This document shows, piece by piece, positions 1 to 19,486 of a stretch of 21,147 nucleotides of DNA; position 1 is the first letter of the stretch; each line of letters starts with the position of its first letter. Where the stretch lies: IMG/VR virus record IMGVR_UViG_3300010400_000215, positions 1 to 21,147 of that record; one strand, given 5' to 3'. The stretch is from a virus. Below the pieces are notes generated by a model. The model was not told where the DNA came from and ran no database searches. It saw only the letters and a program-made list of their open reading frames with translations. Position numbers and translations under genes: made by a program.

Positions 1-731
1 ACAGTCGCGTATTGCCGGACCGCCGCGGCAAACGTCAAGGCATTGAACGGTTTCCAGATCGCGCCGACTGCGCCCATCGCCAACACTTCTGTCGCGGTGA
101 AGATATGTCCGCTACACAACACGATGGGAATCTCGCGCCACCGCGGTTCCTGCTGGAGCCACGCCGCCAATCTCGGGCCGCTATCATGCCCGAGTTCCAA
201 ATCCAACAGGATCACATCGGGCCGCACGGCCATCAGCGCCTTCAGGATGTCCTGTTGATTCGCCACCGCACGTACCTGCATGTTGTCGCCGCTGAGAATC
301 AGCCACACCAACTTCACATCGGTCTGATTGTCGTCCACATGCAGCACCGAGAGCGGCGGATTCAACCGTGCGCTGACAGCCTTGTCCATGCGGGTGATAA
401 TCGAATCGGACAGCAACGACGCTTCAGTCGACGTCAACGCGCGGCCTTCCGCAACCCCCGCCGCCCGCGACAACTCGCGCTCATGGACAGATGCCTCTTC
501 CAGTCGCATCTTGAATTCATCGATTCGACTGTTGACCACGTGGTAGGTCTCTTGCGACTTCATGAATGCCAAGAGACTCACCGTCGTGGGGACCACGAGA
601 CTCGCCACCGCCGCGATCAGCGCCGTGTTGTCGCTAGTCGGCCGCATGATGACGACGGTCATAATCGCGAACAATCCAAGACCGGCCATGATGACAACAG
701 CAATTAGGTATGGGACATTGGAAGGCTTCAC
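1..731 (-). CDS. Membrane-anchored receiver-domain (REC) protein, 3' end cut off
   Basis: I translated the minus strand by hand: it is open for 243 codons from a GTG at 731 to the window edge, so the C-terminus is missing. The GTG overlaps the upstream stop as GTGA. Residues 7-29 and 37-57 are two hydrophobic helices, and 58-100 is a charged, coiled-coil-like stretch containing VNSRIDEF, a motif I associate with small phage membrane proteins. Residues 127-243 match a CheY/response-regulator receiver: acidic pair D133-D134, phosphoacceptor D177 in VILLDLEL, switch Ser S207 in VLCSG, and K227-P228 in WKPF. The spacings (D134 to D177 43, D177 to S207 30, S207 to K227 20) suit the fold. No output domain is visible before the cut. 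Family knowledge says such a domain accepts phosphate from a histidine kinase on Asp. A role in host signalling or lysis timing is inference. Confidence 0.85.
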   Translation of the reverse strand, partial: MKPSNVPYLIAVVIMAGLGLFAIMTVVIMRPTSDNTALIAAVASLVVPTTVSLLAFMKSQETYHVVNSRIDEFKMRLEEASVHERELSRAAGVAEGRALTSTEASLLSDSIITRMDKAVSARLNPPLSVLHVDDNQTDVKLVWLILSGDNMQVRAVANQQDILKALMAVRPDVILLDLELGHDSGPRLAAWLQQEPRWREIPIVLCSGHIFTATEVLAMGAVGAIWKPFNALTFAAAVRQYAT

Positions 732-1327
732 AAGGTGGCCAGCCTGACCAACTCCTCAGCCGCCACCGCAATCCGCGTCAGCAGTGAGATGACTTCCGAC
801 GACGGCGGAATCGGATCGGGGCCCGGTCCCGGCGTCGGTGGCACCGTGCCATCAAACGTGAATACGCCGGAGTCATGCACCGGCACCGGCAACGTCACGA
901 TGTTGCTGCGCTCTTCCACCGAGCGAATGTCTTTCCGCCGCTGGTCCCCTGCACACGCGAAGAACCCCACCTGCTCGCCGGGGCCAGGCTGATGATTCAT
1001 CTCGGGCACGAAGTAGTACCAGTCCTGCCGCGCTGCGGAGAAGGGGCCGCCGACGCCTTCCCGGTCGTTCCAGAACTCGATACAGCCCGTGGTGAACCAT
1101 TGGCCGTCCACCTTGACCACCGCCCACAGCGTCCACTGGATGGGACCATCCCAGCCCGGCGGCACGACATCCGGCCACCGGCCCGGCCCGTGCTGTTTGG
1201 TGAATTCCACCCGCACATCGTTCGGGAGAAATTCAATCCGCGTGATGGCCGCGGTGATGGCCCAGTCGCGGACGTCGGGACTACCCCCGACCACCTGCAC
1301 CGTCCCCGGATCGATCATGTCCTGCAT
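728..1327 (-). CDS. Conserved-looking phage protein of unknown function
   Basis: This 199-residue protein starts at ATG 1327, two bases after the stop of the holin-like gene. A longer reading from 1606 is possible but would run through that gene in another frame and has low-quality sequence, so I reject it. The first 150 residues are rich in Trp, Gly and aromatic strands (for example IEFWNDREGVGG and DWYYFVPEMNHQPGPGEQ), suggesting a beta-sandwich. A Pro-rich linker (TVPPTPGPGPDPIPPSS, about 162-178) then leads to a C-terminal amphipathic helix ending in EELVRLATL. There is no signal peptide, membrane helix or recognisable lysozyme or amidase motif. It sits between a holin-like protein and the receiver protein and is probably co-translated with both. 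The function is unknown; it may be a binding or assembly factor with a helix for oligomerisation. Confidence 0.75.
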   Translation of the reverse strand: MQDMIDPGTVQVVGGSPDVRDWAITAAITRIEFLPNDVRVEFTKQHGPGRWPDVVPPGWDGPIQWTLWAVVKVDGQWFTTGCIEFWNDREGVGGPFSAARQDWYYFVPEMNHQPGPGEQVGFFACAGDQRRKDIRSVEERSNIVTLPVPVHDSGVFTFDGTVPPTPGPGPDPIPPSSEVISLLTRIAVAAEELVRLATL

Positions 1328-1329
1328 GG

Positions 1330-1548
1330 TTATCCAATCCGCAACGTGGGGCTGCCGATGCCGCCCATCATCTGCACCAACCAAAGAACCACGAATAAAA
1401 CGATGAGCACAAAGATCACCGTCTGGATTGGCTGGGGCAGATTGAACGCGGCCATGAGGGCCCGCGCGGCCCAGATGATCACACACAGCACAATCAACCA
1501 GAGCAACAACGCGATCGGGTTCAGCGTCAACGCAAACAATGACATCAT
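1330..1548 (-). CDS. Small two-helix membrane protein, holin-like
   Basis: This is a 72-residue, highly hydrophobic protein. One membrane helix spans about residues 10-30 (NPIALLLWLIVLCVIIW), followed by a short turn with NLPQPI and a second helix at about 40-62 (TVIFVLIVLFVVLWLV), then a short polar tail. I chose ATG 1548 because GGAAAGG lies eight bases upstream; a second ATG follows directly at 1545. Size and topology fit class II-type holins or the small inner-membrane proteins often seen beside phage lysis genes, but no holin family signature can be claimed. It follows the last internal-protein gene after a gap of about 100 bases and precedes two genes at 2-base and minus-4-base spacing. 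No endolysin is visible in the window. Confidence 0.7.
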   Translation of the reverse strand: MMSLFALTLNPIALLLWLIVLCVIIWAARALMAAFNLPQPIQTVIFVLIVLFVVLWLVQMMGGIGSPTLRIG

Positions 1549-1563
1549 GAGAAAGACCTTTCC

Positions 1564-1674
1564 ATGAACTGGACGCAACGGGAAACGTGGCTGCAGTGGC
1601 TGGCACTCGGGCTCTTACTCGCGGCGTGTTCTCGCATGATCTGGAACACGCTAGGGCTCCTGCTGGGTTTCTGA
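1564..1674 (+). CDS. Candidate antisense 36-residue lipoprotein-like peptide
   Basis: This is the only plus-strand ORF I would consider real. It encodes 36 residues: a short N-region (MNWTQRETW), a hydrophobic core (LQWLALGLLL) and a lipobox-like LAAC with Cys22, followed by 14 residues ending LGLLLGF. It fills the otherwise empty space between 1549 and 1650 and overlaps the 3' end of the preceding minus-strand gene by 24 bases. About three quarters of codons end in G or C, like the neighbours. There is no strong ribosome binding site; GAGAAAG eight bases upstream is weak. Its place next to a holin-like gene recalls outer-membrane spanin lipoproteins, but those are usually longer and on the same strand as the lysis genes. 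It may be chance. Confidence 0.3.
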   Translation: MNWTQRETWLQWLALGLLLAACSRMIWNTLGLLLGF

Positions 1675-2904
1675 GACGGCTTGCACCGCCGCACGAGCTA
1701 CGTCCGAGATCACCGCGGCAGGCACTTTCTCCGCGATGCGTGAGGCCAACAGCGCAGCCCGTGTCGCCACGGCGGGATGGAGTCCGACTCGCATCGCCAA
1801 TGCCGTGGCTGCCGCGGAATAGGGATTTTTCGTCCGTCCATACTCTTCAGCGCCCGCCATGCCTGAGATGATCGACGGCACCCCGAAAAAGGCGTTCTTG
1901 TTCGCTTCCCGCCCAGTGGCCTGCCGGAGCGACCGCGCGAGATCAATCAACCGGCTCTCCCGCATGTTGAGCGACCCCACCTCCGGGGCTTTCGCTTCAA
2001 TCGCCGTCCGCATCTCGCTGGCGCCAACCTTCTCCGCGGTCTTGCCCGCCTTGCTCGGGATGCCGTATTGCGACGTTCCCACGCCTTCCTGGAGGTCACG
2101 CTTCACGGTGTTGGCTGTCGGGAGGTCCACGATGTCCTGCCGCGCCATGGGTGGTGTGGGCGCCATGGACGGGTGGTTGTCGATGCGCTCCGCCACCTGC
2201 AGTGCGGCGTCGAGATCCTCCGGGGCCCGTCCCGCGCGGCCATACATCGCCCGCGCCCACGTCCGCACCTTATCGGCCACGGTGTGCAGATCGACATCGC
2301 CGGTCGCACTCGCGAGCAGCGCATCCACCCGCGCCTTCAGTTCCCCAATCCGCCGGCCCGCTTCCGTCACCGCGCCATGCGAAATGGGCAGGTTCTCCTT
2401 GAAGGCGGTATCGATGATCTGGGTGGCCTTCCCGATGTTGATCTTGGCCAGTGAGGGCTTCAGGTAACCGCGGTAGACCGCCTTGGCCACAGGGGTGGCC
2501 GCTGCGGAGATCCCCTGTCCTGCGCCTTCCAGCGCCCCCTGCACGCCGCCCTGTAGCGCAATGTCGCCGGCTGCCGCGCCCGGTGTGGCTGGCACCTCTG
2601 CACCTCGCGCGCGGTTGATCAGTTGCTTCACCGCTTCGCCACCAGCTCCGAGGGCGCCCGCCCCCGCAATGGCCCCCGGCACGGACCCGAGGCCGAGCGT
2701 GGGAATGCCCGACGCGCCACCGAGGAATCCTCCCACCGCGCCACCGATCATCGGCAGGGCATCCACGCCCATATCCACCCAGCCGCGCCGGGGAGCATCC
2801 GGCTTTGTTGGTGGCGCCGTCAGGGCCGCGCTGATTTCCTGATCGGTCGCATCATCAGGGAACTCGTGGATGACACCATCCGGGCCTTTGACATGTCGGG
2901 CCAT
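1651..2904 (-). CDS. Putative internal virion / DNA-ejection protein with Gly-zipper segment
   Basis: 417 residues, starting at ATG 2904 in a TGATG overlap with the upstream stop. The N-terminus VKGPDGVIHEFPDDATDQEI resembles a short module (…PDG…..FPD.…..I..AL) that I associate with the start of many phage ejected or internal proteins. Residues about 45-95 form a Gly/Ala-rich hydrophobic stretch (IGGAVGGFLGGASGI, then AIAGAGALGAGG), suited to insertion in a membrane. The rest is largely helical. The C-terminal half contains TANTVKRDLQEGVGTSQYG and EAKAPEVGSLNMRESRL, which I recall from uncharacterised phage virion proteins. Together with the two preceding genes it probably forms the proteins that leave the capsid during DNA entry and build a channel across the host envelope. 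That role is inferred from position and composition, not from a catalytic motif. Confidence 0.65.
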   Translation of the reverse strand: MARHVKGPDGVIHEFPDDATDQEISAALTAPPTKPDAPRRGWVDMGVDALPMIGGAVGGFLGGASGIPTLGLGSVPGAIAGAGALGAGGEAVKQLINRARGAEVPATPGAAAGDIALQGGVQGALEGAGQGISAAATPVAKAVYRGYLKPSLAKINIGKATQIIDTAFKENLPISHGAVTEAGRRIGELKARVDALLASATGDVDLHTVADKVRTWARAMYGRAGRAPEDLDAALQVAERIDNHPSMAPTPPMARQDIVDLPTANTVKRDLQEGVGTSQYGIPSKAGKTAEKVGASEMRTAIEAKAPEVGSLNMRESRLIDLARSLRQATGREANKNAFFGVPSIISGMAGAEEYGRTKNPYSAAATALAMRVGLHPAVATRAALLASRIAEKVPAAVISDVARAAVQAVSETQQEP

Positions 2905-4490
2905 CAGCCGCCCACTTTCCGGAGTTTGCCGTCAGGGCCACGTTCCCACTTCTCAATGGGCGGATCCTTCTTATCCCCGTAGATGCCTTCCTCGTTCACG
3001 ATGGACTGTTTCCGGTTGACGAGGAACTCTTTCACGTTCTCCATCGCCGCCTTGAACTGCTCCGGTCCGAGATTCGGATCGACCACGTCCAACCCGAGTT
3101 GCAGTTTCATGTCGCTCATCGCGCCGGCCCCGAGGGCCACGCCGAGTTCGTCTCCGATGAGCTTCTGCATCTGCCTGAAATTCGTCACCTTCCGATTGCC
3201 CAACTGGAAGCGCGTCCGATTCAGGAGCGCATTCCATGACGGCAGATCCGAGCGCTGGATGGTGTCCGACAGGGCAATCACCTTGTCGATGTTCGGCAAC
3301 ACGTTGTTGACTGCGGCCAGCGCCATCCGGGTCTTCGGATTCACCGCGAACCGGAACCCGATTTCGAAGGCCGCCGGGTTGAAGTTCGGATTCAGTTCGG
3401 ACGCGAGCTGGTAGATCCCGAGCTTCTTGCTGGTGTCCCGACTGTAGGCATAGAGCGACCGGAACTGCTGAAACGTCATGTTGCCGTAGGCTAAGTCGCT
3501 CGCCACCTTGTATTCCGGCGTCCCGGCCGCAATCTTCGGCGCCCCATGCGTGCTCAGATTGATCTCATTACGCAGCTTCTGGAGCTCGAGCGCCTGCCGT
3601 TCCTTCTCTGCGGGGCTCTTCGGCGTCTGACTCGCCGTGTCGACCAGCTCCTTGAACTCGCGCGCATTCGGTTTGCGGTGGTTCTGGGCTATGAAATCGT
3701 CGATCGCCGCCTTCGTGCGGATCTTCATCTCCGAGCCGCTCAAGTCCTGCTCGGGCACATCCGCCACCAGCGGCTTGCCGTCCTGCCCCTGGAGCATCGG
3801 ATAGCCCGCCTGCTGCAACAGCACCCGCGCCGGATACCGCTGCGACGTCCCGGTATCCTGCAGATCGAAATCGATCATCGCCTTGTCGAGCAGCGTCGGG
3901 TCTTTCTTCAACGCCTCCCCGTTGAAGGCCATCCAGTCCTTTGCGGTCTTCGACAGCCGGTCTTCGGTGGACGTCGGCACGAACGGATAGCGCTGGCGGA
4001 GCAGTTGTGCGTTCACGCGCCCCTTCCCAATCCCGGCGAGGGCATCGGCCGCCTGCTGAATCGTCGCCTCGTATTGCTGCGGATCCTTCAGCGTCGGCAC
4101 CGTGGTATGGAGATCCGCCAGGACGCTCTGGGCGATCCGTTCCCGGTTCGCATCGGCCTGCTGCGCCCGCTGGTCCAGTTTGTCCTGCTGCGCCTGCTGG
4201 AGGGCCTGCGCGCGGGCCTGCAGTGCGGCATTGCGATCCGCCGTCTGCTGCAGTTGCTGTTGTCCCGCCATGATGCCACCGGGCAACCCGCCGAGCGGGG
4301 AACGCCGGCCGCCGGCAATGGCTGCCGCCAGCGCCGCGAGCATCATCAATTGCTGCTTCGGGTTCTGACTGACCGGCGGGGCCAGTCCCGGCGGCATCGG
4401 CGCCTGCGGCACCGCAGAGGGCACCGGCAGCGGCATCAACGCGCCTTGGGTCGGATCCTCTGCGAGCGGATCGTCAGCCGGGGGATACAC
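2904..4490 (-). CDS. Putative internal virion protein, large, coiled-coil
   Basis: 528 residues from a GTG at 4490, whose first base is shared with the upstream TAG stop (TAGTG). Residues 1-43 are Pro-rich, 46-60 form a short hydrophobic Ala-rich segment (QLMMLAALAAAIAGG), and 75-125 are Gln/Ala-rich and strongly coiled-coil-like. The remainder is charged and mostly helical, with no Cys-rich, metallopeptidase or lysozyme motif. Its C-terminus ends in a compact polar stretch (EKWERGPDGKLRKVGG). Its size, helical low-complexity start and place behind the tail genes are typical of podovirus internal or ejection proteins. It could also serve as an internal scaffold retained in the virion. No enzymatic role is suggested by the sequence. 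Confidence 0.65.
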   Translation of the reverse strand: MYPPADDPLAEDPTQGALMPLPVPSAVPQAPMPPGLAPPVSQNPKQQLMMLAALAAAIAGGRRSPLGGLPGGIMAGQQQLQQTADRNAALQARAQALQQAQQDKLDQRAQQADANRERIAQSVLADLHTTVPTLKDPQQYEATIQQAADALAGIGKGRVNAQLLRQRYPFVPTSTEDRLSKTAKDWMAFNGEALKKDPTLLDKAMIDFDLQDTGTSQRYPARVLLQQAGYPMLQGQDGKPLVADVPEQDLSGSEMKIRTKAAIDDFIAQNHRKPNAREFKELVDTASQTPKSPAEKERQALELQKLRNEINLSTHGAPKIAAGTPEYKVASDLAYGNMTFQQFRSLYAYSRDTSKKLGIYQLASELNPNFNPAAFEIGFRFAVNPKTRMALAAVNNVLPNIDKVIALSDTIQRSDLPSWNALLNRTRFQLGNRKVTNFRQMQKLIGDELGVALGAGAMSDMKLQLGLDVVDPNLGPEQFKAAMENVKEFLVNRKQSIVNEEGIYGDKKDPPIEKWERGPDGKLRKVGG

Positions 4491-6367: not shown

Positions 6368-7282
6368 TCATCCCTGCTGCGCGACAAACTGCGCGCGGTG
6401 CAACTGATCCTGCCAATCGGCACTCAGCGCCGTCAGGTAAGCCAGTTCAATCTGGATCGTGCTCGCCTTCTCCCGGCGCACGAATGGTGGCTGCGACGGA
6501 TCCTCGCCCGGCTGTTCGAACTGCACCCAGGGGGACCATGTCGGCCGCGCCATCAGCGCTTTAATCAGCCGGTTCTTCTTCACTTCCACCTTGTGCAGTT
6601 CCCACTTCAGCGGCTCGAGATGCGCATCCGGTTTCGGGTCGAACGCATACTGGAAGTTCTCCCGCAGAATCGGAGAGGCTTCCGGCACCACCACTAATCC
6701 GTGCGCCGTTTCGAAGTAGCGCTTCCCCTCCCGCACGGTGGTGGTGATCTTCCCCGGTCCCAACACACGGCCAATCAGGAATTCGAAGTTGGGTCGCTGC
6801 TTCACGTATTCGAATTCGGTGGCCAAGTGGATGCCGTAGATATGCACTTCCTTCGCACCGTTCAGGATGGCGTGCGCAAGCATCCAGCCGGGGCTGGAGG
6901 TGAAGTAGCGCCCGAAGTGGGCCTCGATCTCCGCTTTCGGAAACGGACGCGCCAGGGGCCATCCTGCGGCCTCGGGGTGCTGGGTCTTGAAGTCAGGATG
7001 CAGCCAGACGGGAATGGAGTGCGCCTGCTTGGCCAGCCACTCCAGATGGCCCTGTGGCCGAGCGTAGAACCCGGCCGGGATCTGATGGGCGAAGACGGGG
7101 CGCCCTTCCTGCGGATAGAAGAACTTGTCGAGGGGATGAAAATCTACCCACGCATCGGCGCGGCGAAACCCTTTCATCCTATACGCGTCGTTCAGGCTGA
7201 CCAAGTGAAGCGTCGGGTCATCCCACGGAGTTAAATTCCAAGACTCGGCAGTGCCGATGATAGCCACACGTTCCTGATTCAC
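6368..7282 (-). CDS. Rossmann-type phage protein, possibly DUF115/GT42-like
   Basis: 304 residues from a GTG at 7282 that overlaps the upstream stop as GTGA. The N-terminus is a beta strand plus Gly-rich loop (VAIIGTAESW, 6-15), then SLNDAY (29-34) and WVDFHP (45-50). A second conserved-looking block at 126-171 reads YFTSSPGWMLAHAIL, HIYGIHLATE and EFLIG. This arrangement resembles the nucleotide-binding half of DUF115/MptE-like and GT42 sialyltransferase-like proteins, and I recall similar proteins in many phage tail-gene regions where they remain unassigned. The last 80 residues are helical and charged, probably coiled-coil. It lies between the ADP-ribosyltransferase gene and the ejection-type genes, which suggests a virion or early-entry role. 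An enzymatic activity is not demonstrable from the sequence. Confidence 0.6.
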   Translation of the reverse strand: MNQERVAIIGTAESWNLTPWDDPTLHLVSLNDAYRMKGFRRADAWVDFHPLDKFFYPQEGRPVFAHQIPAGFYARPQGHLEWLAKQAHSIPVWLHPDFKTQHPEAAGWPLARPFPKAEIEAHFGRYFTSSPGWMLAHAILNGAKEVHIYGIHLATEFEYVKQRPNFEFLIGRVLGPGKITTTVREGKRYFETAHGLVVVPEASPILRENFQYAFDPKPDAHLEPLKWELHKVEVKKNRLIKALMARPTWSPWVQFEQPGEDPSQPPFVRREKASTIQIELAYLTALSADWQDQLHRAQFVAQQG

Positions 7283-8412
7283 TGCTGCTCCTGTCCCATT
7301 TGTGACCCTGCCCCGAGGCTGGCCGCAATCGCCACGCCATACTTCCGGAGAATGTCGATCAGGTTGTCGTTGAACACGACGTAATTGCTGGTCCCTTGTC
7401 CGGCGGCCCGTGAACCCTGATCGAGAAACTTCAGACCCGGAATCCCTTTCGATTTCAGAAATTCACTCGCCGCCTGATCGCCGCCCAACTTGGTCGACAG
7501 CGCCTGATATCCGGCGCGGCCTTCGGTGCCTTGGCTCAACATATTCGCGACGTCACTCTCAGAGAGACGGTATCGCGAGCCCCCGATCTCCATGAAGTAG
7601 CGCTTCCCGAAGTCCGGATCCTCTACCACTCGCAGCACGCCACCGCCCGTGAAGTGGACGCCATCCGCCGGAGAAACAGGCTGCAATCCGCCCAGCGCAT
7701 CCTGAATCTGTGGCGACTGCTGACCAACGGGCTTATCCCAATCCAGCATCTGATCGGGATGGGCCTTGATGTTCACTTCGTACACCTTGCCAGGGTTCGC
7801 AGGCGTTACCCGGCCTCGATACTTATCCACCGCTTGCTCATACTCGGCAGCGAACTGCGGAAGGAACCCACGCCTGACCGCCTCGATGTTCTCGCGCCCC
7901 TTCGATAAGTCCGCGATCGCCATATCAATCGGTGACTCCGAATTGAGCGCCCGAAAGGGCTGGCCATCCACAAGGACACCCTGCGGTGCGAGTGCATCAC
8001 GGTAGGCTTTCGCCGTGCCCTCCCGATCCGCGAAGTACAACCCATGCCCGTAGGCCTGCGCCCCTTCCCCTGTATGACTCGTCCGCGGCGACAGTTCAAA
8101 CTTCTCGAAATCATGCGGGGAGCCGTGATACGCCCGAATCCCCTGCGTGGCCTCTGTCCCGGCCCGTTCTGCCGCACTTGCTGCTGCTGCTGCCTTCAAC
8201 CCCTTCGCGCCTGCCGCGAGCGGTAATCCCGCCGCGAGCATCTGCCCGAACCGATTTGGCTGCGAGGCGTCATTGCCCAGCCCCAGCAACCCCAAGAGCC
8301 CCTGAATCCCGCCTTCCAATGGCGCCTGCAGGAACGCCAGCGGCGGCTGTTGCGCCCGCTGCTGCTCCGCGAGCATCCGAAGCGCGGCGGCTACTTGGGT
8401 TTCGTCAGGCAT
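7279..8412 (-). CDS. ADP-ribosyltransferase-domain protein (polyvalent-protein ART type)
   Basis: 377 residues from ATG 8412 (TGATG overlap). The first 90 residues are Ala/Leu/Gly-rich and hydrophobic, resembling the ejection proteins nearby. From residue 93 the sequence matches the ART-PolyVal pattern known from phage and plasmid polyvalent proteins: AYHGSPHDFEKF with H96, GEGAQAYGHGLYFAD with Y126, then VYEVNIKAHPDQMLDWDKP (210-227), GIPGLKFLDQGSRAAGQG (333-340 region) and SNYVVFNDNLIDIL (342-355). His and Tyr fit the NAD-binding positions of H-Y type ADP-ribosyltransferases. Residues about 245-298 look like an insert between two normally adjacent blocks. The family transfers ADP-ribose from NAD to a target molecule. 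The likely role is a virion-carried effector injected with the DNA to modify a host protein or nucleic acid; the target is unknown. Confidence 0.8.
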   Translation of the reverse strand: MPDETQVAAALRMLAEQQRAQQPPLAFLQAPLEGGIQGLLGLLGLGNDASQPNRFGQMLAAGLPLAAGAKGLKAAAAASAAERAGTEATQGIRAYHGSPHDFEKFELSPRTSHTGEGAQAYGHGLYFADREGTAKAYRDALAPQGVLVDGQPFRALNSESPIDMAIADLSKGRENIEAVRRGFLPQFAAEYEQAVDKYRGRVTPANPGKVYEVNIKAHPDQMLDWDKPVGQQSPQIQDALGGLQPVSPADGVHFTGGGVLRVVEDPDFGKRYFMEIGGSRYRLSESDVANMLSQGTEGRAGYQALSTKLGGDQAASEFLKSKGIPGLKFLDQGSRAAGQGTSNYVVFNDNLIDILRKYGVAIAASLGAGSQMGQEQQ

Positions 8413-16668: not shown

Positions 16669-17286
16669 CTATCGCACCCTCGCCGCGAAGCCTTGATACG
16701 CGAGTTCGGTCACCAGATTCAGTTCCGGATTACTGAGCGTGCTCGGCAGTGCCGTGTCCCGCACCAACACGCAGGCGTGCATGTGGCGATACATATTCTC
16801 CGCTTCCGGTTGACTCGCTCGAATCCGCCGCGAGAGTTGCACCCATGCCTCCGGCCGGTTGAATCCCAACGTGACGGCGGTCGCCCGCACGGCCTGCTTC
16901 GCCACCGGGAACGCCGCATGGTCCAGCGCATCCATCGTCCGTGCGAGGGCCGCCCGCTGTTCGTCATCGAACCGCCCGAGGGCGCCCACCGTGCGCAGCA
17001 GGAGCGGTCTGCGGGCTGCTGTGAGCGTCTGCAGCGTCGTCATCGTGCGTTCGACTTCCTGCCGCCTGAACCGCGACGTGTGCCACCAGAACCCCAGCAT
17101 GGTGCGCGTCCACACCAGCCAGTCGGTGAACACCGCCCACCAGATCGACAACCCCTGGAACCCGAACCCGCAGGTGAAGATGACCGCCGACTGCCACATC
17201 GGATAGCCGCCCCGTGTGATCCGGATCGGCGCCGCGTTGGTGTCGCTCGTGGCCCAGAAGTTCCGGTGAAACACAAAGGACGGCAC
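16669..17286 (-). CDS. Trp-rich membrane-associated protein of unknown function
   Basis: 205 residues. I chose the GTG at 17286 (TAGTG, one base shared with the upstream stop), with GGAG 11 bases before it; a longer start at 17352 would lie inside the preceding gene. Residues 31-69 are hydrophobic and Trp-rich (WQSAVIFTCGFGFQGL, SIWWAVFTDWLVW, MLGFWWHTS), with enough length for one or two membrane segments. The rest is charged and helical (RRQEVERTMTTLQTL, DDEQRAALARTMDALDHAAF). This is unusual among virion-structural neighbours. It might be a membrane protein of a lipid-interacting virion, or a protein inserted into the host envelope during entry. No known family was recognised. Confidence 0.6.
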   Translation of the reverse strand: MPSFVFHRNFWATSDTNAAPIRITRGGYPMWQSAVIFTCGFGFQGLSIWWAVFTDWLVWTRTMLGFWWHTSRFRRQEVERTMTTLQTLTAARRPLLLRTVGALGRFDDEQRAALARTMDALDHAAFPVAKQAVRATAVTLGFNRPEAWVQLSRRIRASQPEAENMYRHMHACVLVRDTALPSTLSNPELNLVTELAYQGFAARVR

Positions 17287-17675
17287 TAGGTCAACGGCTC
17301 CGCTGATATTTTCGCCGTCGCGAACCCGGTCACCGCGGCATTCAGCCGGCACCGCAGCCGATCGCCCTTCTCCAGTTTGTAGGTCAGTTGATACTGCCCA
17401 CTCTGGCCGCTCGGGGTCTGCACATAGGTCCGATCACTCACAGCAGCCGCCGCCAGGCTGGTCGACGTCGCCTGCTCCAACTGCCACGTGGCGTTGGTGC
17501 TGCAGCCGATGATCCAGTTGACCATGTAGGACTGCCCGCCCACGAGGATGCGCGCCAACTGTGTCGAGTCAATCTCTGCAATCAACGTGGACGTGGACGG
17601 ATTCACTTCGATCCCGTCCGCATTGGTGCCGCCGGTAGAGTTGACCGGCGTATTGCCCGAATCGCGCCACGCCAT
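17286..17675 (-). CDS. Small beta-rich virion protein, paralogue B of the tandem pair
   Basis: 129 residues. ATG 17675 follows the preceding stop by one base; an in-frame ATG at 17711 would overlap that gene and adds an unrelated leader, so I use the later start, which also aligns with the neighbouring paralogue. Shared phrases are GNTPVNSTG, TLIAEIDSTQL, GQS, TWQLEQATSTSLA and a terminal ISAEPL. It has no helix-rich section and no membrane segment. Placed just after the major capsid gene, it could be a small capsid decoration or head-spike protein forming trimers. Function is not known. Confidence 0.65.
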   Translation of the reverse strand: MAWRDSGNTPVNSTGGTNADGIEVNPSTSTLIAEIDSTQLARILVGGQSYMVNWIIGCSTNATWQLEQATSTSLAAAAVSDRTYVQTPSGQSGQYQLTYKLEKGDRLRCRLNAAVTGFATAKISAEPLT

Positions 17676-17676
17676 A

Positions 17677-18063
17677 TCACCCCAACGGCACGGCAGAAAT
17701 GTAGGCTGCACCCGTCGCCGCCGACGAGAACTGCCGCGCCCGAATCCGCATGTCTTTGGTCAGGTCATGCAGCGAGTGCAGTTCCTGCGATTGCCCCGCC
17801 AACGTCTTCGGAAAGAACACGTCCTGCCCATTCGCCAGCGCGGTAGATGTCGCCGTTTCCAACTGCCACGTGCAGGTGCTGTCCGCCCCGACAATCCATG
17901 TCACGGCATACAGCCGTGATTGACCGGTGACGAAGTTGACCGTGCCGAGTTGGCTGGAATCGAGTTCGGCGTAGAGCGTGGCCGTGGAGCCCGCGACCAC
18001 AGGAGCAAAGCCGGTCGAATTGACCGGCTTGTTCCCCAGATTCGCAAAGTCGTACAGACCCAT
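17677..18063 (-). CDS. Small beta-rich virion protein, paralogue A of the tandem pair
   Basis: 128 residues from ATG 18063, with AAGGG four bases upstream. The N-terminus MGLYDFANLGNKPVNSTG aligns with the next gene's GNTPVNSTG. Later blocks also correspond: TLYAELDSSQL, GQS, AVTWIVG, TWQLETATSTALA, DMRIRARQ, TGAAYISAVPL. By eye, at least one third of positions are identical across the full length. This shows a tandem duplication followed by divergence. Beta-rich composition and location beside the capsid gene suggest decoration or head-fibre subunits. The two copies could form a heteromeric structure. Confidence 0.65.
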   Translation of the reverse strand: MGLYDFANLGNKPVNSTGFAPVVAGSTATLYAELDSSQLGTVNFVTGQSRLYAVTWIVGADSTCTWQLETATSTALANGQDVFFPKTLAGQSQELHSLHDLTKDMRIRARQFSSAATGAAYISAVPLG

Positions 18064-18568: not shown

Positions 18569-19486
18569 TCACGCTCCTGCTGTTCCGTACAGGCCCACGT
18601 AGGTCCACGCGCCGACACTGAACCGATGCCGAATTTTGAAGATCCGGTTGTTCGTGCGCGCGTCGATCATCATCGGTTCCATCGTGATGGCGACCCGACG
18701 GTAGAACGTCAGCCCGTGCTGGCTCTTGTTGCTGGCAATGAGGAACCACGCATCCGGATCACTCAGCCTGGGGTTGACGACGATCTCCCAGGTGCGCCGC
18801 TTCAGCGGGTTCTTGTCGTTGTCCGCACTGCCCGGCAACTGAATCGAGTTGACCAGCCGATCCGCGAGGAACTCCAGGGCCGGCGGCACCACCAGCTTGA
18901 ACCCATGCACCGGATTCGCGAGGTGGCCGGCATCGTCTTTCTGATCCGTCTGGAAGTCGATCAGCGCCTGTGTGAGCGACGTCGCGGAGAGGTCCGCATC
19001 CGTGCTCGGGCGGTTCTTCGCCGTGCCGCCACCCTTCAGCGCGTGCGCCGTGTTGAACAGCGACACACCGTCCGGCGTCAGTTCGCTCGAGAACCCGTTG
19101 TTGAGCGGATTCGCCGCGCGCCCTTCTTCGACGTAGCGCGCACTGAACGCGAGCCACTCGCCGGCCCGGTTCAGAATGTTCTCGGTGTCGTCTTCCAGCG
19201 CCGTCTGGGTGACTTCGAACCCGAGGCCGTTTTCCGTGTGGTTGAAATCCTTCGTGTAGCCCTGCCGGATTTCATCCATCACGAATGCTTCGCCTTCGGG
19301 CTTGCTCTGCGTGTCCCCGAAGGGCACATAGGTCACGACGCGCTCGTACTTCCGGTCGGACGTGCGGACGTTGTAGTACTCGGTGTAGATCTTCGGCAGC
19401 TCTTTCAGCTGCTGTTTCATCACCGAGTAGAAGGTTTTGTCTATGCCATCGTAGAGATCGGGATTCGTACCGCGAACTTGGGCCAT
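18569..19486 (-). CDS. Major capsid protein (Mu gpT-like / HK97-fold type)
   Basis: 305 residues from ATG 19486, with AGAGG about five bases upstream. The N-terminal arm is helical (YSVMKQQLKELPKIYTEY), followed by ERVVTYVPFGDTQSKPEG. A conserved-looking loop at 139-155 reads DGVSLFNTAHALKGGGT, the signature region I associate with Mu gpT-like capsid proteins. The C-terminal half (VVPPALEFLADRLVNS, RRTWEIVVNPRLSDPDAWF, HGLTFYRRVAITMEP, FKIRHRFSVGAWTYVGLYG) fits the P-domain of HK97-fold capsid proteins. Its role is to form the icosahedral shell around the DNA. No separate prohead protease or scaffold gene lies in the window. The upstream 83-base leader holds an inverted repeat that may regulate translation. 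Confidence 0.85.
   Translation of the reverse strand: MAQVRGTNPDLYDGIDKTFYSVMKQQLKELPKIYTEYYNVRTSDRKYERVVTYVPFGDTQSKPEGEAFVMDEIRQGYTKDFNHTENGLGFEVTQTALEDDTENILNRAGEWLAFSARYVEEGRAANPLNNGFSSELTPDGVSLFNTAHALKGGGTAKNRPSTDADLSATSLTQALIDFQTDQKDDAGHLANPVHGFKLVVPPALEFLADRLVNSIQLPGSADNDKNPLKRRTWEIVVNPRLSDPDAWFLIASNKSQHGLTFYRRVAITMEPMMIDARTNNRIFKIRHRFSVGAWTYVGLYGTAGA

Follow-up and report, generated by a model that had tools for sequence, protein, structure and literature searches.

A phage membrane protein joined in frame to an intact receiver domain in an IMG/VR viral contig

Here we report an in-frame fusion of a membrane anchor, a stalk and an intact response-regulator receiver (REC) domain, encoded on the minus strand at positions 3-731 of the IMG/VR record IMGVR_UViG_3300010400_000215, a tailed phage contig analysed over 21,147 bases (hereafter the window). 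The architecture, which is firm, consists of a two-helix membrane anchor, a long helix and a REC domain and was assigned from the open reading frame, Pfam and AlphaFold. Phage REC domains were already known, as were, separately, lysis proteins with membrane and coil segments; their covalent join, of a phage membrane/coil protein to a REC domain, is new among the collections searched. The best explanation is that a phage membrane protein gained a cytoplasmic receiver domain. The virus is a soil-type bacterial virus with its genes on the minus strand, including a major capsid protein (18569-19486; Phage_capsid_4, Pfam) and further virion proteins.

The fusion protein and its receiver domain

The reading frame from 731 to 3 (minus strand) comprises 243 codons, begins with GTG and contains no stop codon up to the contig end. 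The start codon shares the sequence GTGA with the stop of the gene before it, an overlap also present in sister contig L002. Since the frame runs off the contig, the C-terminus of the protein lies beyond the sequence; the REC fold is complete by residue 242, and an extra C-terminal part could follow it. A frameshift between the membrane part and the receiver was looked for and none was found, homology to the phage membrane family (residues 3-111) and to REC (residues 129-238) lying in a single uninterrupted frame.

A sequence-only reading of the same DNA had described two membrane helices, a coiled-coil-like linker and a receiver with all hallmark residues at normal spacing, and each of these elements was recovered. 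The transmembrane helices span residues 10-28 (648-704, minus strand; hydropathy, and AlphaFold helix H6-29) and 38-56 (564-620, minus strand; hydropathy). Directly after the second helix lies the motif LAFMKSQET..VNSRID, conserved in 10 aligned members of the N-terminal family, and the 30 residues after that helix contain five K/R, yet seven D/E as well. A long helical linker, probably a coiled coil, follows at residues 57-123 (363-563, minus strand); it carries a short insertion relative to the stand-alone relatives (alignment A9). The AlphaFold model of the whole protein (mean pLDDT 81) consists of helices H6-29, H35-94 and H101-123, followed by the receiver.

The REC domain occupies residues 127-242 (6-353, minus strand). 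Pfam Response_reg (PF00072) matched residues 129-238 over profile positions 1-110 of 111 with 62 bits (E 7e-17), well over the curated cut-off of 30.2 bits. The acidic pair D133-D134 of the Mg2+ site (330-335; alignments A1 and A7), the phospho-acceptor D177 (201-203; A2 and A7), the switch residue S207 (111-113; A7) and the conserved lysine K227, followed by P228 (51-53; A7), are all present on the minus strand and align with phage RECs. AlphaFold folds this part as a complete (βα)5 receiver with pLDDT about 87-94, and Foldseek against DivK, CheY, PhoB and RR468 gave TM-scores to the target of about 0.84-0.88 with prob 1.00. The REC fold and active site are thus common to the window protein and to the single-domain response regulators CheY, DivK and RR468, which are soluble and cellular, whereas the window protein is viral and predicted to be membrane-anchored. 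No DNA-binding output domain follows the REC up to the contig end, beyond which the C-terminus lies, and no cognate histidine kinase gene was found among the scanned window proteins, a subset of the ORFs of a partial contig.

Relatives, neighbouring genes and the joint

When viral contigs were scanned with profiles, members of the family of the N-terminal half turned up on 16 further IMG/VR contigs, in agreement with the proposal that this half is a small phage membrane protein. Stand-alone members are 39-53% identical to the window N-terminus (tblastn, E down to 1e-28). The conserved core of the family reads 'PY..AVV.M ... PTTLSLLAFMKAQETHLSVNSRLDAF' and is accompanied by a short charged tail; as a protein of the LAFMKAQETHLSVNSR phage membrane family, the window protein has the two transmembrane helices and the conserved motif. 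Over its first 110 residues the window protein matches the PTTLSLLAFMKAQETHLSVNSRLDAF family with up to 53% identity, but the other members found end at about 100-160 residues without a REC, whereas the window protein continues into one. None of the members on the 16 contigs extends into REC (member L185 is cut by a contig end), and PF00072 is absent throughout the records that hold them. The N-terminal half thus matches a phage family whose members lack REC, and the window protein is therefore a member of this family plus a REC domain. The family itself has no match in Pfam or PHROGs; neither the window N-terminus nor its relative P0022 matched a Pfam or PHROG holin, and the window N-terminus did not match the XhlA family. 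In other phages the family genes sit near terminase, portal or tail-fibre genes. Because no lysis family occurred among the listed matches of their neighbours, we gave up the idea that these membrane proteins form a lysis family.

Searches for the same fusion in other phages were negative: viral contigs searched with six exact peptide patterns, drawn from the full length of the protein, yielded no second copy, and the fusion appeared in none of two N-terminal-family and two REC profile scans. A whole-protein scan of genome contigs returned only one distant REC, from a Muribaculaceae genome. The protein had been described as not a standard phage product, and the viral structure library indeed holds no protein of this architecture, its REC matches aligning over about 120 columns, which corresponds to the REC alone.

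The gene immediately upstream (728-1330, minus strand) encodes an unclassified protein of about 200 residues that is 99% identical in a REC-less sister contig, and the next one (1330-1578, minus strand) an 82-residue membrane protein with two helices, 98% identical in the sister contig; altogether three genes upstream of the fusion share 98-99% identity with it. The fusion had been placed beside a holin-like gene. A two-helix gene does exist, but it is one gene further away, with 728-1330 intervening, and its product gave no match to any holin family. No lysis gene was identified within the 21-kb window, including beside the REC protein. In L171, a homologue of the 82-residue protein adjoins a gene of the N-terminal family.

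The capsid, virion and other window genes match more than 10 further contigs of the same group. Bases 3-359, which encode the REC, are phage-like in codon usage (log-likelihood per codon 0.30; null mean 0.32, sd 0.10; 30th percentile), and their GC3 also matches that of the phage genes; such values would also fit a host of similar composition. A host-chromosome origin of this contig end was considered and set aside, as the codon usage of the REC matches the phage genes and composition lends that origin no support. When a host was sought through capsid relatives in bacterial genomes, none was found.

The fusion gene sits in a slot that follows the structural genes and closes the late-gene region, and the content of this slot varies between close relatives. 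In contig G062 (74% identity in the capsid), a 124-residue protein without REC, 40% identical to window residues 3-117, lies beside the homologue of the 82-residue gene. In sister contig IMGVR_UViG_3300005334_000115 the same GTGA overlap opens a 97-residue protein whose sequence shows a single hydrophobic helix and a coil. Three further relatives carry small helix/coil proteins and cell-wall enzymes in the region after the structural genes: Phage_lysozyme in G005 (E 5e-15), Cell Wall Hydrolase in G008 (E 4e-16) and Peptidase_M15_4 in G010 (E 5e-11). No REC was found in any of 84 related viral records, many of which are fragments.

Elsewhere in the window, three observations concern gene exchange and duplication. 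The gene at 7279-8412, between g121 and g304, shows a weak, below-cut-off match to ART-PolyVal (ADP-ribosyltransferase of polyvalent proteins); that place is empty in contig G003, where many of the genes around it are 98-100% identical, which points to a recent insertion or loss. The gene at 2904-4490 is 92% identical to that of G003 and only 30% to that of sister contig G001, with which most of its neighbours share 91-99% identity; this contrast suggests a recent allele swap. Two adjacent genes at 17286-18063 (141 and 128 residues) are tandem paralogues in this phage group, about 46% identical.

Stand-alone receivers in Alteromonas phages

A tblastn search of 50,697 phage records returned many response-regulator matches, most of which are probably bacterial contamination, possibly including the OR84xxxx records. 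The unverified Pseudomonas phage Y11 (OQ572412) and those human-fecal scaffolds (MT83xxxx) whose ORFs were inspected were rejected, since ordinary cellular genes adjoin the REC, and unannotated Listeria, Staphylococcus, Enterococcus and similar records were left out of the comparison. Contaminated phage records of this kind would mislead searches for phage signalling genes. In Stenotrophomonas phage Bhz63 (L107:3486-5032) a probable histidine kinase gene comes after a PhoP-like response regulator of the ordinary type, and the phage was set aside for that reason; the locus lies outside a lysis region.

Among well-annotated phages, only Alteromonas phages, in six lineages, have single-domain RECs. 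In every one of the six, the REC directly follows a gene of 93-125 residues with a membrane helix and/or coiled coil, and in five a holin, endolysin or spanin gene is no more than one or two genes away. The order is a helix/coil protein (121 aa), REC (150 aa) and GH108 lysozyme, with overlapping reading frames, in R9Y2; holin, a one-helix protein (98 aa) and REC (153 aa) in R8W and H4/4; an XhlA-like coil/helix protein (101 aa), REC (125 aa), M15 peptidase and holin in PB15; a coil protein (125 aa), REC (149 aa) and Rz-like spanin in V22; and a coil protein (122 aa), REC (147 aa) and Rz-like spanin in A5. In V19 a helix protein (93 aa) precedes a degenerate REC, and no lysis gene was identified nearby. 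The partner genes have a predicted N-terminal helix in R9Y, R8W and V19 and a C-terminal one in PB15, whose partner is XhlA-like (phrog_937, 'hemolysin'); the V22 and A5 partners fall below the hydropathy threshold for a membrane helix. A5 and V22 share their REC module by transfer, according to PMC10579305, and therefore count once. By a hand estimate made after the fact, and indicative only, a REC would lie within one or two genes of a lysis gene by chance in four independent lineages with a probability of order 1e-5.

Like the window REC, these are phage-encoded single RECs in a late-gene position with a membrane or coiled-coil partner, and the best viral fold match to the window REC is that of V22. 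The small membrane helix and coiled coil of phage XhlA-like and holin-type lysis accessories likewise recur in the window protein, whose N-terminus differs in matching neither of these families. The Alteromonas RECs are separate, soluble gene products from phages of marine hosts, whereas the window REC is fused to a membrane protein, and the two share 14-26% identity over the alignment. Homology of the window N-terminus to the Alteromonas membrane partners was not detected, and the likeness is therefore a parallel of architecture only, not one family. Single-protein Pfam scans of the Alteromonas REC proteins P0002, P0013 and P0018 found no DNA-binding domain. The phospho-aspartate site is conserved in the window and five other lineages, with D53, S83 and K103 invariant in alignment A2.

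The V19 receiver (L105:3498-3950), which follows the small membrane-helix gene, has lost the phospho-aspartate and the lysine and is a pseudo-receiver; its fold signature is kept (29.9 bits against the 30.2 cut-off). As this REC lacks the phospho-site, phosphorylation is not always needed. Two annotations look wrong: the V22 'hybrid sensor histidine kinase' (L100:3986-4435) has only 149 residues, and the R8W 'DNA-binding response regulator PhoB' (L103:3501-3962) has 153 residues and matches the REC model only.

The Alteromonas RECs (V22 gp30, A5 gp11, R8W g48, H4/4 gp44, R9Y gp12 and the PB15 'response regulator') have been named PhoB and an auxiliary metabolic gene (PMC8228385) or CheY-like class II auxiliary genes (PMC7289586, PMC10579305), and the available portions of these three papers state no link to lysis. 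No paper that connects phage receiver domains with lysis was found in the literature searched, which lay mostly outside subscription journals, nor does that literature appear to report that phage RECs recur together with a membrane partner and lysis genes.

Interpretation

Our preferred reading, which we hold tentatively, is that the membrane-anchored receiver lets host phosphotransfer tune a late membrane protein, probably one of the lysis region. The REC would be cytoplasmic, given the positive charges after the second helix and its need for phosphate derived from a kinase or metabolite. D177 could receive phosphate from a histidine kinase of the host or from a small phosphodonor; this would change the pairing or dimerisation of the REC, and the stalk would relay the change to the membrane hairpin. 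A membrane protein of the lysis region might thereby assemble, or form pores, more or less readily, and lysis, or another late membrane event, would respond to the state of the host. The window protein looks like a fused version of the Alteromonas pairs of REC and small membrane/coiled-coil protein, which may represent the same device split over two genes. As the RECs are paired with membrane/coil genes in Alteromonas lysis regions, control of a lysis-region membrane protein is the best single guess. Of the putative roles put forward in the sequence-only reading (phosphate sink, lysis timer or signal sensor), that in lysis gains indirect support from synteny, through the endolysins in the relatives' region and the RECs beside lysis genes in most Alteromonas lineages; against our reading stand the single fusion contig, the position of the REC at its very end, a window in which no lysis gene was identified, the neighbourhoods of the N-terminal family in other phages, an N-terminus without a holin match or detected homology to the Alteromonas partners, and the V19 receiver without a phospho-site.

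The REC might instead act as a membrane-bound decoy that drains phosphoryl groups from one host histidine kinase, or binds and blocks it, and so mutes a host programme during infection (e.g. an envelope-stress or phage-response system), the anchor only positioning it near membrane kinases. Many histidine kinases are membrane proteins, the catalytic residues of the REC are complete, no output domain is seen up to the contig end and no cognate kinase gene was noticed in the window. We consider a decoy rather unlikely, however, since a soluble REC would be enough, the link of the soluble Alteromonas RECs to a membrane partner gene and to lysis genes suggests that the partnership is specific, and the C-terminus of the fusion protein is off the contig. 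It is improbable that the REC serves as a protein-binding or dimerisation module which organises the membrane protein without phosphotransfer: the V19 receiver, in a similar position, keeps its fold signature without the phospho-aspartate and lysine, but the window REC and those of the five other lineages retain the phospho-aspartate site.

Two further alternatives concern the slot and the joint. A moron, that is an accessory or superinfection-type membrane protein which modifies the envelope of the host or detects a further infection and is unrelated to lysis, would fit the varied places of the N-terminal-family genes in phage genomes and the differing slot content of close relatives; it is no more probable than a pure binding module, as the slot lies at the late-gene end, where relatives carry endolysins. 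An assembly chimera, in which a REC gene from a bacterium became attached to the contig end, is very improbable. The REC does fill the last 353 bases, the fusion was seen on no second contig and the 84 related records are without REC, but the joint is in frame and at a domain border, and the codon usage and GC3 of the REC resemble those of the phage genes.

Returning to tuning by host phosphotransfer, a wider proposal, which we advance with more doubt than the reading for this one protein, is that a receiver-controlled membrane protein of the lysis region, fused in the window and in two genes in Alteromonas phages, is a general phage device that couples the host phosphorelay or acetyl-phosphate level to lysis timing. 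The Alteromonas pairs occur in cultured phages, and the idea is therefore directly testable. Descriptions of phage lysis timing have mostly ascribed it to the holin itself. If the proposal is true, host two-component signalling would be wired directly into phage lysis, and the 'PhoB' or 'CheY' genes that have been published as auxiliary metabolic genes would receive a new interpretation. With a REC attached to a lysis-region membrane protein, a phage could sense host physiology via host kinases. By analogy with unrelated marine viruses, in which the parts are neighbours, some viruses may take signals of the host into account in determining how the cell is burst.
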